This document shows positions 22,824-40,331 of a stretch of 42,703 nucleotides of DNA, in pieces. The position numbers were made by a program, and so were the translations under genes. This DNA is from Candidatus Pacearchaeota archaeon (lineage in GTDB: Archaea; Nanobdellota; Nanobdellia; Pacearchaeales; GW2011-AR1). The stretch lies in assembly GCA_018304045.1 (NCBI GenBank), contig JAGVWZ010000014.1:1-42703 (forward strand), in the 5' to 3' direction. The notes beneath the pieces were generated by a model, which saw only the letters and a program-made list of their open reading frames with translations, had not been told where the DNA came from and did no database searches. Numbering within the stretch: position 1 is the stretch's first letter; the number at the start of each line of letters is the position of its first letter.

Positions 22824-25800
22824 CTAAAACCATTTACTCATATTTTCCTGCTTCTCAGTCTCCTTACCAAATATACTTTCTATATATTTTTTAACAAGTT
22901 CTAAATCTTGATTAATATATGCAGGAACATCAAAATGTTTCACTAAATCTAATGCAGGCTCTAAATATTTTACAATACTTCCATAGGAAATAGTAAAAAT
23001 AAGTTTAGGATTTCCACATTTAGTGCATTTGCCGTTTAAAGGAGGTCTTCTGAATATTTCATTGCACTTACCACATCTAAAATTCTGCTGTGAAAACTTT
23101 CTTAGATTACCTTTTAAATCTTTCATAAAATGCCTGTCTATGATAAGCCTGGCAACATCTCCCTGATCAACACTTCTTAATTTAGTGCACAAATCCATTT
23201 GCCATTCAACCTTATCTTTCATTGTTGGAAGAGTTTTATAAGAAGAACAAGTACAACCCATATTAAAATCACTAGTATCATGAGTAAATCCAGTATTACA
23301 GAATGGATCTTCTCCTTTATTGATTCTTTGTTTAACCATCTCAATTTCAATCTGATTTGAATGTAATTTTTGCTCTGCTTTTTCATACAATTCTAAAGGA
23401 TAACTATTGACCAATTCAAAATCAAGTATCTGGTCATCAACTTCTTTAGCATAAACCCTTCCATTTAAAACAAGTGGAGCATCTTGAGTACCTCCTCGAT
23501 GGCTTGGTAAAAAAGTTCTTGAAAAATTTATTAAGACATCTAATAATAACATCAATGCTGCTTCATCCCCATCACATCTAAAATTAATTATCCCCTCTCC
23601 CCACAACACATTTTTATCTAATCTCTCAGTATTTATAATATCAAAACAATAAGAATAATTATCATCAGTATACTCTTTTACATCAATTATTTCATCAATA
23701 AAATAATCTCCTTTACTTTCAAAGTTTATTTCATCCATTAATTTTCTTTTGCCAAACTCTTTATCAAAAATTTGAGTTCCAACAAAATTTTTATACTTCC
23801 TCAAAATAGCTATCTTATCGCCAATATTAATTTCCTTTGCTTTTTTTATTTGAAATTTATTATTTTTATCTAAATAAAAAAAATCATGGGTAGGTGTCAT
23901 GATTTGTTCCCTCCCACTTTTAGTTATTATTTTTGTCCAATACTCTGGATTTTTTGATTTAATAAAATATTTTATTTTCTTCTTTACTAATTTATGGGTA
24001 ACTATATCTATTCCATAAGCATAAAAGTTTTTTTCATCTTTATCTAATTCTACTCTAATAGTTCCATAAGAATCAATTTGTTTTGTTTTATTTCCTCTTT
24101 TAATTAACTTTTCAATATAACTACCAATTTTAACATGATTAACCACCCCATTTTTTTCATAAATCATCCCCGTATTTGGATGGACACAATCCCTCCTCAT
24201 AGCAGCATGCATATAGGCGCTTGCAAGAAGTCCTTGTACTTTTGAAAATCCAATTATCCTACAAATAACTCCTGCACAATTATGGGGCGCCATACATACC
24301 CCCAACTGCCCAACCAAATCTTCCTTTTTTTTAATATTATAGAATTTTGGAAGCCCATAGAACTTTTCTAATAATTCATCTAAAAAATTTGAAACATTTA
24401 TAAAAACATCATCTGCTTTTTCATCACCACAAAATCCATTGCAAGGAATTATTATATCATGAGGTTTTAATTCCAATATTTGTTCTTCATTTTCCAAAAC
24501 ATTTCCAAAAATATCTTTTTCATAGCCTAGACTTCTTAATTTTTCAACACTAACTTCAATCTCCAGGGGTTTAAAATGACTTACAGGAAGTTCAGTCATA
24601 TCATATCTTACAGTACCATCTTTATTAACACAAAGATTATATTTTGCTCTTAAAACACCCTTAACTAAATTTTCAATATCATGATTTGTAGAACTAGTTC
24701 CCCTAACCCCCTTTATTTGAACAGGCATTTCATTTTTACTATAACCTAATTTTTGTTTAGCAACTTCTAAATAATTCCCAACTTCAATCCTTTGTTTTTT
24801 GTATCCTTCAGAAGAATTATGAATTTCACATTTTTTTCCTTCAATTTCCTTATTGCAAACTCTGCAAAAATACTTTCTTTTGGTTTTACTCCCACAAGAA
24901 CAAATACCATAAATACTTTCTTTATTACATTTTTCACAATAAAAAAATGGAAAACTTGAATCTACATAACCTTTTATAACTGCCTCATTAACACTTCTTA
25001 ATCTTCCACCTTCTTCTCCAACAGGAAATAAAACATTTGGACTTCCAATTAATTTTCTCAATTTTGCTTTTTCAGGCCTACCCATTCTACTTCCAATAAA
25101 TTCTCCTGCCTTATCCCTAATCTTAAATTTACTTAGTTTATTTATAATTCCAAGAACAAAATTTCCCTCTGACTTTGCTCTTAATTCTTTATCATCAATA
25201 GTCTGAAATACTAGATCTAATTTCTTAAAATCAAAATTTAAATTCAATTCTCCTTCATGTTTAGAATCAAAACCAAGATTAATTAACAGGGCCTTGGTAT
25301 CAATTTCATTTAAAATAACGTTTTCAACACCTATCTCATGTTCAATTCCGAGCAATTCCAATGTTCTTTTTCCAATCTTAAATCTTTCTTTTTCATGAGA
25401 ATTATATGGAAATAATAACTTACCCACATTAACCCTTGAATGATTCAACCAATCAATAAACCCTAAAAAGTGTTCATAATTAATTTGGGTCCAGTAATAA
25501 ATATATTTTGGACTAAGTGCAACTCCAAAAATTCTTGAAAGTTCTTTTGCATCTTCAAAACTAACTTCATATGAATTTTTTACTTTTCCACCTAATTTTT
25601 CTAATTCAAGATTCCACCATTCTTCAACATAAGCACTTTTTATTAAAGTAGCATTTCTGTTCATAACATCTCCCAGGGGAAATAATATATCCCCAATATA
25701 GATTATTTCTTCAACATCCTTATACAATTCTTTAGCTTCTTCATAGGTTTTTAATTTTTTAACACTTCCATTTTTTAATTTAACAATAGGTCCTTCAATA

Positions 25801-29299: not shown

Positions 29300-30499
29300 C
29301 TAAATAGCTAAAGAATCTATTAAAATATCCTTTGATTTTTTTAATACATTCTCAGGAATATCCAATCTTATCTCTCTTGTTCTTCCTTGTCTTCCCTTAC
29401 TAACTACCCTTGCATTTATTAGTCCAAGCATATCGAATTCAGCTATAATATCTCCCACTCTCCTCTGAGTTAAAATTTCAAAATTAGTCTTCTTACATAA
29501 TTCATTATAAAAATTATAAACATCTCCTGTAAAAATTCCATCTTTTTCATTTTTTGTTAGTTCAATAATAGAATAAAGAACTAATTGGAATTGTCTAGGT
29601 GCTGTTTCAATAATATCTAAAATCTTATCTCTTTCAATTTTTTCATTGGCTTCATCAATATGTTTTATCTCTATCTTTGGACTTGAAACCCTTTCTGCTA
29701 TTTCTCCTGCAACCCTTAATAAATCTAAGGCTCTTCTTGCATCACCTGTTTCCCTTGCAGCATAGGCAGCACATTTTGCAATAACTCCTTCTGAAACAAC
29801 TCCATCTTTAAAAGATTCTTCTGCTCTTTTCTTTAAAATATCTTGCAATTGTGTTGCATTATATGGCGAAAAAATCATTTCTTCTTCAGACAATGAACTC
29901 TTTACTCTAGGATCAATCATCTCTAAAAACTTAGCATCATTACTAATACCAATTATACTTATCTGAGTCTTATTTAATTCAGAATTTAACCTCATTAGAT
30001 TATATAAAAAACCATCTGAGATCTTCTTAATAGCCTGATCTATTTCATCAAGGATTATAATTAATAATTTTTCATCATTTTCCTCAAGTAATTCAACAAA
30101 TTTTTTATAAACCTGGTCTGTTGGAAGACCTGTTGAAGGAATCTCTCCCCCAATCTTCTTGATTAATTCTGCAAAAATCCTATATTCAGTATCAGCTACT
30201 TTTTTTAATTTGCAATTAATATATTCTATTCTCAAAATTTTGCTGTCCTTAGTTCTTTTTGTCAATTCATCAGCCACATGTTGAACTGATAGGGTTTTTC
30301 CAGTTCCTGTTTTACCATAAATAAACAAATTACTTGTTTTTTGCCCAAGTAAAGAAGGTGCTAAAACAGAGGCAATATGATCAATTTCTTTATCTCTATG
30401 AGGAATATTCTCAGGATTATAATTTGATTGCATCATTTGTTTATTCTTGAACAAACTTCTACTACCAACAGAATCAAATATTTTATCTAAATTTACCAT
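29300..30499 (-). CDS. cdc6: Orc1/Cdc6 replication initiator
   Basis: A 399-residue AAA+ protein: Walker A GKTGTGKT (62-69), Walker B LLIIILDEID (145-154), sensor 2 ARETGDARRALDLLR, and a C-terminal winged helix (IFTGDVYNFYNELCKK, LTQRRVGDIIAEFDMLGL, KGRQGRTREIRLD). These proteins bind ORB elements and recruit MCM. Its upstream region (30600-30950) has ORB-like sites with G-runs and an AT tract, so the gene sits at its own origin. Confidence 0.95.
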   Translation of the reverse strand: MVNLDKIFDSVGSRSLFKNKQMMQSNYNPENIPHRDKEIDHIASVLAPSLLGQKTSNLFIYGKTGTGKTLSVQHVADELTKRTKDSKILRIEYINCKLKKVADTEYRIFAELIKKIGGEIPSTGLPTDQVYKKFVELLEENDEKLLIIILDEIDQAIKKISDGFLYNLMRLNSELNKTQISIIGISNDAKFLEMIDPRVKSSLSEEEMIFSPYNATQLQDILKKRAEESFKDGVVSEGVIAKCAAYAARETGDARRALDLLRVAGEIAERVSSPKIEIKHIDEANEKIERDKILDIIETAPRQFQLVLYSIIELTKNEKDGIFTGDVYNFYNELCKKTNFEILTQRRVGDIIAEFDMLGLINARVVSKGRQGRTREIRLDIPENVLKKSKDILIDSLAI

Positions 30500-30720
30500 C
30501 TCTTTTTAACTTCCTTTTAATTATTTCTTTTCACCATCTTTTTTATATCTCTATTAATATAAACAAAATATGAGTTTATAAATTTGATTACCTACTTAAA
30601 AATAGCTACCTTTATTTCCACTGAAAGACTCCATCAAAACTCCTTTTTACACCCCAATTATAGCATAATTAACTTATTTTTACTAAAAAAACAAGTTAAA
30701 AACTAATAAAAAAATATCCA

Positions 30721-30750
30721 CCCCCCACCCCCCTATTTCCATTGGAAACT
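30721..30750 (-). promoter_or_regulatory. ORB-like element 1 with G-run
   Basis: Read on the minus strand: GTTTCCAATGGAAATAGGGGGG followed by TGGGGGG. The dyad TTTCCA-A/T-TGGAAA plus adjacent G-string matches the archaeal origin recognition box bound by Orc1/Cdc6. Confidence 0.8.
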
Positions 30751-30779: not shown

Positions 30780-30865
<86 letters not shown>

Positions 30866-37637: not shown

Positions 37638-37904
37638 ATGAAATTGAGCAATGAAAAAAAAGACAAAATTTCTGAACAAATACTCTCCCATTTATTTCAT
37701 TCTTTTCCAAAAACACCATTTACAGCAGAGGTTGCAAGAGAAATGATACGTGATGAAGAATTTGTTAAAAGATTACTAGTCGAGTTAGAGTCTAAAAACC
37801 TTGTAGTATCCATAAGGAAGAATAACAAAGGTGAACCTTTTTCCAGAAGATTAAAGTGGAGATTATCCAATAAAGTTTATGAGGTTTACAAATCTAAACA
37901 ATAA
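37638..37904 (+). CDS. Winged-helix-like small protein
   Basis: An 88-residue soluble protein. The helix pattern KISEQILSHLFHSFPKTPFTAEVAREMIRDEEFVKRLLVELESKNLVVSI is a winged helix, and the rest NKGEPFSRRLKWRLSNKVYEVYKS looks like the wing and last helix. I recall very similar unnamed proteins in Pacearchaeota. It lies directly upstream of the coiled-coil/winged-helix gene and ends 37 bp before it, so the two may act together. Confidence 0.7.
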   Translation: MKLSNEKKDKISEQILSHLFHSFPKTPFTAEVAREMIRDEEFVKRLLVELESKNLVVSIRKNNKGEPFSRRLKWRLSNKVYEVYKSKQ

Positions 37905-37941: not shown

Positions 37942-38700
37942 ATGAAAGATCCAATAAAAATTGCCTTTTCTAAAGTTAAAATTGATATTTCTAATCTAGA
38001 AAATGAAACATTTCTTATTAAAAAAGAGATTCTAGAGATTAAATCTATGTTGACTTCCCTTCATGAGTTACTTAATGATCAAGTTTTATCAAAGATCTCT
38101 GAAAAATCAGGTATTTTCACTCCAACACTCACTCCAACAGACAGACAGACAAATCCAACAATAGACAGATATCCAACAGACACTCCAACAGTTCCACAGG
38201 AAATAGGGGGGTTAAAAACCCCAAATATAGAAATTTCCACAGGAAATAGAGGGGTTCCAACAGACAGACAGACAAACCAACAGACAGACAGACAGACACA
38301 AAAAACCTATATTTTACCTGATTTATCCATTAAATCTAAAGATATTAGCTCTTCTGTAGAGTCCAGTATTCTCGAGGCATCAGGAATGATTAATTCACTT
38401 AATTCCATAAAAAAAGATATAAAGTTAAAATTTAAATCTTTAACAACTCAGGAAATGCTTATCTTTTCAACTATCTATGAATTCGAGGAAAAAGATCCAA
38501 ATAATACTACTTATGAGACTATCTCTTCGAGATTAAATCTAAGTGAAAGTTCAATAAGAGATTATACCCTTAAATTAATTAAAAAAGGCATTCCTATTAA
38601 AAAACAGAAGATAAACAATAGAAAAGTTCTTCTTTCAATATCTCCAGAGCTTAAAAAACTTGCAACTCTTTCCACAATTCTTCAACTAAGAGAGCTATAA
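37942..38700 (+). CDS. Coiled-coil/winged-helix DNA-binding protein with repeat-bearing linker (type 1)
   Basis: A 252-residue protein: N-terminal amphipathic coiled coil (about 8-50), a low-complexity linker (about 59-121) with PTDRQTN/QQTDRQTQ repeats, and a C-terminal winged helix (about 165-241; LTTQEMLIFSTIYEFEE, ISSRLNLSESSIRDYTLKLIKKG). The linker DNA carries two ORB-like motifs and several CCAACAGACAGACA repeats. The two ORB-like copies are read in different frames, pointing to a DNA-level function. Candidate initiator, partition or nucleoid protein. It shares its plan with the gene at 39209. Confidence 0.72.
   Translation: MKDPIKIAFSKVKIDISNLENETFLIKKEILEIKSMLTSLHELLNDQVLSKISEKSGIFTPTLTPTDRQTNPTIDRYPTDTPTVPQEIGGLKTPNIEISTGNRGVPTDRQTNQQTDRQTQKTYILPDLSIKSKDISSSVESSILEASGMINSLNSIKKDIKLKFKSLTTQEMLIFSTIYEFEEKDPNNTTYETISSRLNLSESSIRDYTLKLIKKGIPIKKQKINNRKVLLSISPELKKLATLSTILQLREL
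38124..38300 (+). repeat. Intragenic iteron-like and ORB-like repeats
   Basis: CCAACAGACAGACAGACA occurs at 38134 and 38257, CCAACAGACAC at 38173, CCAACAGACAGACAGACAG at 38278. Between them TTCCACAGGAAATAGGGGGG (38192-38211) and TTTCCACAGGAAATAGAGGGG-like sequence (38234-38254) match the ORB pattern of oriC element 1 (TTTCCAATGGAAATAGGGGGG). All lie inside one reading frame. Confidence 0.8.
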
Positions 38701-39208
38701 AAACCTTTAAAATTAGGCTCCTGAGAGCCTAAAAAGGGCATTACAGCGATTTTACATCAGATCTTTCTTCCTTAAAGACCCTCATAAGATTATTTACTTT
38801 CGGTATAACGATTAATATTTAGCGTTAGCTTCAGCTAAATATTAATCCCATTAAAGTCTTGAGGACTTTAAGCCCTAAAAAGCTAATTTATCCAAACATT
38901 AGCCCCTTAAAAACCAAATTCTCTCTTCTTTAATTAAATCTTCTTTTTTCATTGTTTCTTCTCTTTTTTCTTAAAATCATAATCATTTTTTTTAAATCCT
39001 ATCTCACACTTTTTTAATTTCTCTTACTTTTTATTCAAAAATCACTATTTTTCAGTAGATTAATCCATTAGTTAACTCTCACTTTTCCAGTTTTTAGTGG
39101 TTTTTTCATGTTTTTTTAGGTATTATTAGTGTTTTTATCCATTACTTTACTAAAAAACACACTTTTCCTATTTTTGAAGTATTTGAACAGCTATTATATA
39201 ATAACTGT
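38701..39208. other. 508-bp intergenic region with three hairpins
   Basis: TTAGGCTC-CTGA-GAGCCTAA (38713-38732); GATTAATATTTAGC with a 10-base loop and its perfect complement (38810-38847, 14-bp stem); TTAAAGTC-TTGAG-GACTTTAA (38851-38871). All three have perfect stems. The rest (38872-39208) is T-rich with no ORF. It lies between the 3' ends of the two coiled-coil/winged-helix genes. It may hold terminators, a structured RNA or a recombination site. Confidence 0.6.
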
Positions 39209-39829
39209 CTAGTAATCCTCCATTTCTTTTCTTTTCTTTTCTTTTGATTTTATTTTTTTAGCTTTTAGTAAAATATCCCTTACTTCTAATGGAATGAATA
39301 ATCTTTTCTTATTATTTTCCCCAACTATCTCTTCCAACAGTCCTTCATTTTTTTGTCTAATTGAATTAACTTGCCCTCTTATTGTTGCCTTATCCTTTCC
39401 AAGCATTGCAGCAAGATCTTCATAACTCAATTTCATATCTCCTGCATTAAGCAAAGTAAACATAATTGCTCGTTCAGTTATAGATAAATTGTCCAAAATA
39501 CCTGTTTGAACAGGTGTTTGAACACTGTTTAAAACACTAGAAACACCTGTTTGTTTATTAAACACTGTTTGCCTTTGTTTAAAAATCCCTCGTTCACCTA
39601 AAATTGAAACCATGTTTTTCAAATTTTCAAGTTCATCTTTCACCGAAGCTAATTCTTCACTTAAATCTAAAACCTGATCTTTTATTTCAGAATTATTTGA
39701 GTCAAGGTGTTTAATCCACTTGCTCATGTTGTTTATATCCTGTTTAGCACTGTTGAAGCCTGTTTGAACAGCCTGTTTAAGTTGTTCAACCTCTCTTTTT
39801 TCAGCCTTTTTATTAAATATTCCAAACAT
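39209..39829 (-). CDS. Coiled-coil/winged-helix DNA-binding protein with repeat-bearing linker (type 2)
   Basis: The start is set at ATG 39829 (MFGIFNKKAEKREVEQ, 206 residues) from the TATA box at 39851. It has an N-terminal segment with KQAVQTGFNSAKQ, a coiled coil (about 35-80), a Gln/Thr/Val-rich linker (84-113; TVFNKQTGVSSVLNSVQTPVQTG) and a winged helix (115-190; LSITERAIMFTLLNAGDMKLSYEDLAAMLGKDKATIRGQVNSI). The linker DNA is built of AAACAGTGTT and CTGTTTGAACAG units in more than one frame. I recall relatives with QTPVQTGVQT linkers in many DPANN genomes. Confidence 0.72.
   Translation of the reverse strand: MFGIFNKKAEKREVEQLKQAVQTGFNSAKQDINNMSKWIKHLDSNNSEIKDQVLDLSEELASVKDELENLKNMVSILGERGIFKQRQTVFNKQTGVSSVLNSVQTPVQTGILDNLSITERAIMFTLLNAGDMKLSYEDLAAMLGKDKATIRGQVNSIRQKNEGLLEEIVGENNKKRLFIPLEVRDILLKAKKIKSKEKKRKEMEDY
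39500..39570. repeat. Intragenic CTGTTTGAACAG/AACACTGTTT repeats
   Basis: CCTGTTTGAACAGGTGTTTG, AACACTGTTTAAAACAC, GAAACACCTGTTTG and AAACACTGTTTG follow each other with half-sites in both orientations. A second group (CTGTTTGAACAGCCTGTTTA, GTTGTTCAAC) lies at 39758-39790 in the N-terminal codons. The same units occur outside the gene at 39968-39996 and 41760-41834. Confidence 0.75.
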
Positions 39830-40331
39830 ATATATTTCAAACACCACTCCTTTATAAATCTTTCTGTAATGATCTTTAATACTTTTTAATTTATCATCGA
39901 TAAAACCAAATCCAAACAGTTGTTTTATCTATTAGATTATTCCTCCAAATTCTATTTTATAGTGTTTTTTGGGTTGTTTAAACAGCCATAAACAGGTAAA
40001 CCTCTAAAATTATTAATTCATTTTTAATTCATTTTTTAATCAAATTTGTCAAAACAACAAAAAACAACTCAATTTTAGCCTAATAATAAGTTTTAAACAC
40101 ACAATTTAACACAATTATCGCTATTTTTACAAATTAATCAATTTTTACTTATTTTCATTTTATATATAAATGATGCATTTTTACTTATTTTTTTATCAAA
40201 AATGTGCTTATTTTATCAAATTAATCAATTTTTGCTTATTTTTTATCAAAAATAGAGATTCATCCAACAACCAAAACTCCCTAAAAAATAAGATTTAAAT
40301 ACCTAAAAATCTTAGTCTATTTACAAAAAAG
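39830..40331. other. 500-bp AT-rich intergenic region with direct repeats
   Basis: It holds the TATA box of the 39829 gene (39851-39859), GGTTGTTTAAACAGCC and ATAAACAGGTAAAC (39972-40000), and a block of direct repeats: AAATTAATCAATTTTT(A/G)CTTATTTT at 40131-40155 and 40218-40242, with further (A/G)CTTATTTT..ATCAAA units at 40178-40220 and 40230-40255. No ORF is visible. The repeats lie just upstream of the 40341 gene. Confidence 0.6.

Follow-up and report, generated by a model that had tools for sequence, protein, structure and literature searches.

Genes and features of the locus

The stretch of DNA analyzed here (42.7 kb of a Candidatus Pacearchaeota genome, referred to below as the window) encodes the replication initiator Orc1/Cdc6 and, further along, three genes that we designate wh0, WH, and wh2 (Table 1). 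Synteny with relatives covers the order PolD large subunit, PolD small subunit, cdc6, variable genes, and wh0-WH-wh2. The wh2 gene follows WH in 28 of the 29 named loci and is missing only in L037, whose locus ends soon after WH. In those named loci that include cdc6, it lies about 2 to 9 kb from WH, and in the G044 genome this distance is 15 kb.

Table 1. Genes and sequence elements of the WH locus (window coordinates)
Feature	Position	Strand	Evidence or remarks
orc1/cdc6 initiator gene	29300..30499	-	Pfam Cdc6_C 3.4e-28, Cdc6_lid 3.4e-25; adjoins both DNA polymerase D subunit genes
Third ORB, TTCCAATGGAAATAGGGGGG	30728..30747	-	Non-coding, about 230 bp upstream of cdc6
wh0, immediately upstream of WH (small, winged-helix-like)	37638..37904	+	Synteny in 29/29 named loci
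WH gene (host of the in-gene ORBs)	37942..38700	+	ORF, 252-aa product
Upstream array, CCAACA / CAGACA units (relatives: TTCGACA)	38121..38188	+	Units in two or three frames
In-gene ORB copy 1, TTCCACAGGAAATAGGGGGGTT	38192..38213	+	Frame V-P-Q-E-I-G-G; TTCCACAGGAAATAGGGGGG at 38192
Spacer between the ORBs	38214..38234	+	Partly conserved columns; codon bias in linker codons 60-97
In-gene ORB copy 2, TTCCACAGGAAATAGAGGGGTT	38235..38256	+	Frame I-S-T-G-N-R-G-V; TTCCACAGGAAATAGAGGGG at 38235
Downstream array CCAACAGACAGACAGACAAACCAACAGACAGACAGACAGACACA with 4-bp CA spacing, adjoining the 3' end of ORB copy 2	38257..38302	+	Codon freeze
wh2, convergent coiled-coil + wHTH gene downstream of WH	39209..39847	-	Synteny; WH profile match
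wh2 in-gene palindrome array, AAACAGNTGTTT-type, 11-12 bp units	39497..39580	-	Linker of wh2

The WH protein consists of a coiled coil (residues 4 to 55), a disordered linker (about 60 to 137), and a C-terminal winged helix (138 to 251); in the AlphaFold2 model, pLDDT is high in the coil and the wHTH domain and about 50 to 60 in the linker. This model, together with weak Pfam similarities, agrees with the winged-helix product of the original prediction. The Pfam scores fall below the gathering thresholds (24.4 versus 25 bits for HTH_36 and 23.1 versus 27 bits for DnaD_N), so that the sequence similarity to these families is suggestive of a relationship and does not amount to membership. Foldseek returned generic MarR-type wHTH matches alone, none with an E value below 0.001. 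Searches of Pfam, NCBIfam, and PDB sequences found no match of WH to WhiP/Cdt1, and the family libraries hold no named family for it. Homologs of WH are present in 44 of the 55 relatives and in 160 of the 281 genomes of the class; viral homologs were searched for and none were found. Some homologs (L240 to L244) are devoid of both the linker and the ORB. Scanning the window gave no Rfam hits and no tRNAs.

The wh2 protein is a distant relative of WH (WH profile match with an E value of 1.4e-6). The part of wh2 that encodes its linker carries palindromes of the form AAACAGNTGTTY, which have frozen codons and, in 11 of 29 homologs, use two frames. Among the four near-complete genomes tested, every genomic copy of the tandem palindrome in G019, G044, and G028 lies within 2.5 kb of wh2, and none is found in G035. 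Outside the order, the class-level loci have next to no palindromes of the wh2 type near WH.

Several other features of the window deserve mention. Upstream of wh2, at positions 40105-40260, repeats of very high AT content (AATTAATCAATTTTTRCTTATTTT and TTTATCAAAAAT) are a candidate unwinding region or promoter. A perfect 14-bp inverted repeat, GATTAATATTTAGC/GCTAAATATTAATC, is found downstream of WH at 38810-38847; the hairpins of the window's WH-wh2 gap are not common to the relatives checked. The non-coding DNA upstream of cdc6 (30780-30865) includes an ATT-triplet run and three 14-bp repeats, AACCATCCTCACTT. Finally, the PolD large subunit has an insertion of ~200 residues compared to its relatives (about 23577-24185, minus strand, at ...MRRD/CDGDEA; alignments skip residues 917-1119), which looks like a mini-intein.

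Origin recognition boxes within the WH gene

The published common motif of the archaeal origin recognition box (ORB) is TCCA[CG]T[TG]GAAA[TC][GA]AAGGGGT (PMC4164010). The in-gene element of relatives such as L189 is an exact instance of this Ori-Finder 2 motif, and the two copies in the window differ from it at 2 to 3 positions; by consensus, the WH-linker elements are archaeal ORBs. Both have the form TTCCACAGGAAATAG(A/G)GGGGTT and are located 43 bp apart on the same strand in different reading frames, the spacer and the G run of copy 1 reading GGGGTTAAAAACCCC. The 43-bp spacing is the same in all 16 WH genes of the close-spaced two-copy type. Copy 1 is seen only in the window's own genus and its near relatives, and it is copy 2 that has been retained throughout the class.

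A search of the host genome (1,160,851 bases in 55 contigs) with the pattern TTCCNNNGGAAATNNNGGGG produced exactly three exact matches, the two in WH and the one upstream of cdc6. The additional matches obtained with up to 2 mismatches are isolated and dispersed, except for one that overlies copy 1 on the opposite strand. Another, weaker ORB-like site lies upstream of cdc6 at 30607-30626. These data support the original prediction on two counts: that the linker carries Orc1/Cdc6-type sites, and that the repetition resides in the DNA, as the two copies are read as different peptides.

The G019 and G028 genomes have one ORB per chromosome contig, in each case inside WH. G044 has two in total, one in WH and the other upstream of cdc6, where G035 also has an equivalent site. 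In the class as a whole, the pattern TTCCNNNGGAAANNNNGGGG matches 155 of the 281 genomes, compared to a single match for the reversed control. A listed WH gene and an ORB match occur together in 96 class genomes; of the 111 ORB matches in these genomes, 98 are in or at WH, and most WH-bearing genomes have no exact match elsewhere. Of the 116 genomes listed with WH, 20 lack an exact match, and several of those inspected have a T-to-C variant. Families without the in-gene element have the same ORB, in 1 to 3 copies, in mostly non-coding DNA. In other Nanoarchaeia families (L261, L263, L265, L269, and L272), TGTCTCA/TGAGACA repeats surround the non-coding ORBs and are perhaps a non-coding counterpart of the CAGACA array.

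Arrays flanking the boxes

Four or more repeat units had been noted around the ORBs, and CCAACAGAC indeed occurs at four positions in WH (38134, 38173, 38257, and 38277). All seven copies of the word CAGACAGA in the window are inside this gene, and the TTCGACA, CCAACA, and CAGACA units are used in two or three frames. The 4-bp periodicity of CA stands out against codon-shuffled arrays (z = 25.7 for the order and 15.8 for the class), although, with related and hence non-independent sequences, these values exaggerate the significance. A stronger argument comes from the units, which change between lineages: the unit is CAGA in order-level relatives and CAAT, CACT, CATT, CAAA, CACG, or of the CGACA type in other families, where the ORB persists along with the 4-bp spacing of CA. 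Even within the single family f51, the unit may be CACT, CAAT, or CAGA. Because the unit varies between related genera while the ORB stays constant, a different or looser role of the array is also possible, and its fast turnover argues against a strictly sequence-specific reader.

Selection on the linker DNA

In the order-level alignment, copy 2 of the ORB has the invariant positions TCCA..GGAA.....GGGG.T, followed by the array, in 47 of 47 homologs. All 47 have the ORB inside an intact reading frame; an intergenic position was not encountered. For the codons of this ORB and array (codons 99 to 119), mean homozygosity is 0.89 where the codon usage of WH itself would predict 0.43, with a mean z of 9.8 and p < 0.002 in 16 of the 19 testable columns. 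The codons of the winged helix (z of 0.7; p < 0.002 in 6 of 95 columns) and of the coil (z of 0.5; 0 of 28 columns) are at background. The ORB region has fixed otherwise rare codons, namely, TCC for Ser (98% versus 11% in the background) and GGG for Gly (96% versus 16%). Thus, the comparison of homologs that had been suggested as a check came out as anticipated: the linker DNA persists at synonymous positions, and the frame of the ORB has changed in at least two distant homologs (L233 and L237), where the array-proximal ORB is read in the V-P-Q-E frame instead of S-T-G-N.

Alternatively, the linker sequence STGNxGVPTDRQT could be a protein motif, e.g., a binding motif, with the DNA repeats being incidental. 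The peptide columns S99, G101, G104, T107, and Q110 are in fact invariant in the order-level alignment. However, a peptide motif would not call for freezing of synonymous Ser and Gly codons, nor does it fit the second ORB frame in L233 and L237 or the arrays themselves, whose peptides differ entirely between lineages (TDRQ, NQSI, LTHS, and ARTH) under the same 4-bp CA period. Conservation at the peptide level as the cause is already contradicted by the frozen codons and the change of frame, and we give the protein-motif reading virtually no credence. Judging from these alignments, selection on the linker acts on the DNA, not on the peptide.

Strand composition and the position of the origin

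Raw GC skew of whole contigs is confounded by gene orientation, and we therefore used strand-corrected skew at third codon positions. In two of the four near-complete genomes, G019 and G044, the skew switches on WH or within 3 to 4 kb of it. On the 511-kb contig of G019, the third-position AT switch is at 313,116, inside WH (change-point interval 313.1-317.1 kb; R2 of 0.64), and the other switch (terminus) is on the opposite side of the chromosome. In this genome, WH (312.8-313.5 kb) and cdc6 (315.1-316.3 kb) are only 2 to 3 kb apart, and the skew cannot separate them. In G044, a single contig of 710,724 bases, the switch falls at 506.9-507.5 kb, 3 kb off WH at 510 kb (delta chi2 of 3.9), and cdc6, at 525 kb and 15 kb from WH, is disfavored (delta chi2 of 16.1). 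The skew thus favors WH over the cdc6 promoter, on one informative separation, that in G044. Third-position skew gives no usable signal in G035 and G028 and does not single out WH there.

A search of the order-level homologs for an AT-rich unwinding element at a constant distance found none; the ORB region is the least AT-rich spot of the alignment, and its ORBs are direct repeats. There is no AT-rich DUE flanked by inverted ORBs at WH. Since both the intergenic position and the AT-rich center with inverted ORBs are missing, we do not classify this locus as a canonical ORB-DUE-ORB origin.

Comparison with known origins

The WH locus shares with the ORB-based oriC of Pyrococcus, Sulfolobus (oriC1), and haloarchaea (oriC1) an ORB with a dyad and a G-string, linkage to cdc6 and replication genes, and, in two genomes, a skew switch. 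It differs from them in that the ORB is within a coding gene, is frozen at the codon level, and is coupled to a 4-bp-periodic array. In Sulfolobus, an inverted pair of ORBs flanks the DUE (PMC12141716), as opposed to the single copy or two direct copies in WH. Sulfolobus oriC3, which is adjacent to whiP and has no ORB (PMC4010727), also associates a chromosomal origin with the gene for an archaeal winged-helix protein; however, it lies beside whiP, whereas the ORBs of WH are inside the gene, and WH itself has no match to WhiP/Cdt1.

The original prediction compared the locus to replicators embedded in Rep or initiator genes, and the comparison is apt. In phage lambda, the origin repeats are in the middle of gene O, which encodes a DNA-binding replication protein (PMC3985674). 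In both cases, replicator repeats are inside the gene for a DNA-binding protein, in WH under selection at the DNA level. Lambda, however, is a phage, and its 19-bp iterons are bound by O itself, whereas WH is on a cellular chromosome and its main conserved site is predicted to be recognized by Orc1/Cdc6; the two share no sequence relation, and self-binding by WH is only putative. Bacteria have a basal unwinding system of DnaA-boxes plus DnaA-trios, and a DnaD recognition element (PMC10201434). There, too, an initiator box is directly followed by a short-period repeat, of 3 nt in bacteria and 4 nt at WH, although the initiator and the repeat are different and a single-strand function at WH is purely hypothetical.

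A probable chromosomal origin inside a protein-coding gene

Most genomes have no strong ORB other than the one inside WH, and the compositional switch points to this gene; hence, the site is probably oriC itself, and not, as had been proposed, a site 7 kb from it. From the sequence data and the skew switch in two genomes, we consider it quite likely that the WH linker is the core of the chromosomal oriC, recognized by Orc1/Cdc6. Orc1/Cdc6, encoded nearby, would bind the in-gene ORB or ORBs with a fixed polarity, such that the G-string of the box faces the array. This adjacent array, with its 4-bp period (CAGA units in the window), would be a second functional element of the origin, used for landing, unwinding, or loading or bound by WH, and replication would start at WH or within a few kilobases of it. 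The peptide linker would then be mostly a side effect of the origin, its disorder allowing it to accommodate whichever residues that DNA encodes. The winged-helix fold, the constant linkage, and the weak similarity to HTH_36 and DnaD_N suggest that WH acts at the origin, and the most likely role of WH and wh2, as far as it can be predicted, is that of a co-initiator or regulator at the same origin. Binding of WH to its own array is plausible, with the chances about even.

The in-gene ORBs might instead be Orc1/Cdc6 sites at which replication does not start, i.e., a regulatory sink or an operator for WH or cdc6, with the start upstream of cdc6. That is the classical place, where the window, G044, and G035 all have an ORB, and the skew in G019 is compatible with either location. 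Yet the G044 skew disfavors cdc6 far more than WH (delta chi2 of 16 versus 3.9), and exact ORB matches outside WH are absent from most of the genomes that have the gene, which makes this arrangement unlikely. Still less credible, in our view, is a partition or centromere-like site, in which WH or wh2 would be a ParB/SegB-like protein bound to the in-gene array and the ORBs would only couple partition to initiation. The coiled coil plus wHTH architecture, the arrays near the origin, and the presence of two such genes side by side would all fit, though none of them points specifically to partition; however, no ParA/SegA gene was noticed among the ORFs of the window, and strict conservation is confined to the ORB, which is an initiator site, whereas the array unit turns over quickly.

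Two further versions keep the origin in WH. The WH protein may not act there at all, the array being an unwinding or single-strand platform for Orc1/MCM or some other factor. The turnover of the array unit among f51 genera (CACT, CAAT, and CAGA) next to a conserved winged helix would be consistent with this, but the constant linkage of WH, wh0, and wh2 to the origin and the weak DnaD_N/HTH_36 similarity of WH speak against it, and we regard it as a possibility of some weight that falls short of being the expected case. Conversely, the whole origin could be intragenic and double, with the Orc1/Cdc6 box and a (CANN)n unwinding or loading array in WH and the palindrome array in the convergent wh2. 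Each winged-helix protein would work on the origin DNA in its own gene, the linker and the origin would evolve as one text, and the 4-nt array would correspond, in archaea, to the DnaA-trio element of bacteria; this picture is offered tentatively and is rather doubtful.

The separate parts of an oriC within WH, namely, the ORB, Orc1/Cdc6, and a replicator inside a phage initiator gene, are known. We found no report of a chromosomal ORB origin that is codon-frozen inside a winged-helix gene across an archaeal class, nor a description of any pacearchaeal or woesearchaeal origin, in the searchable literature, which mostly leaves out subscription journals; the origins of DPANN archaea appear to be little studied. 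Ori-Finder 2 scans intergenic DNA only (PMC4164010) and would miss an in-gene origin such as that of WH.

If confirmed, the WH locus would represent a cellular chromosomal origin inside a protein-coding gene across a large archaeal group, the Pacearchaeota and their relatives. To our knowledge, such an origin-within-gene layout is otherwise known from phages and plasmids. The locus would also be a natural record of the mutual constraint between origin DNA and an overlapping protein linker, and it would offer an easy way to test for oriC by sequence in many uncultivated genomes.
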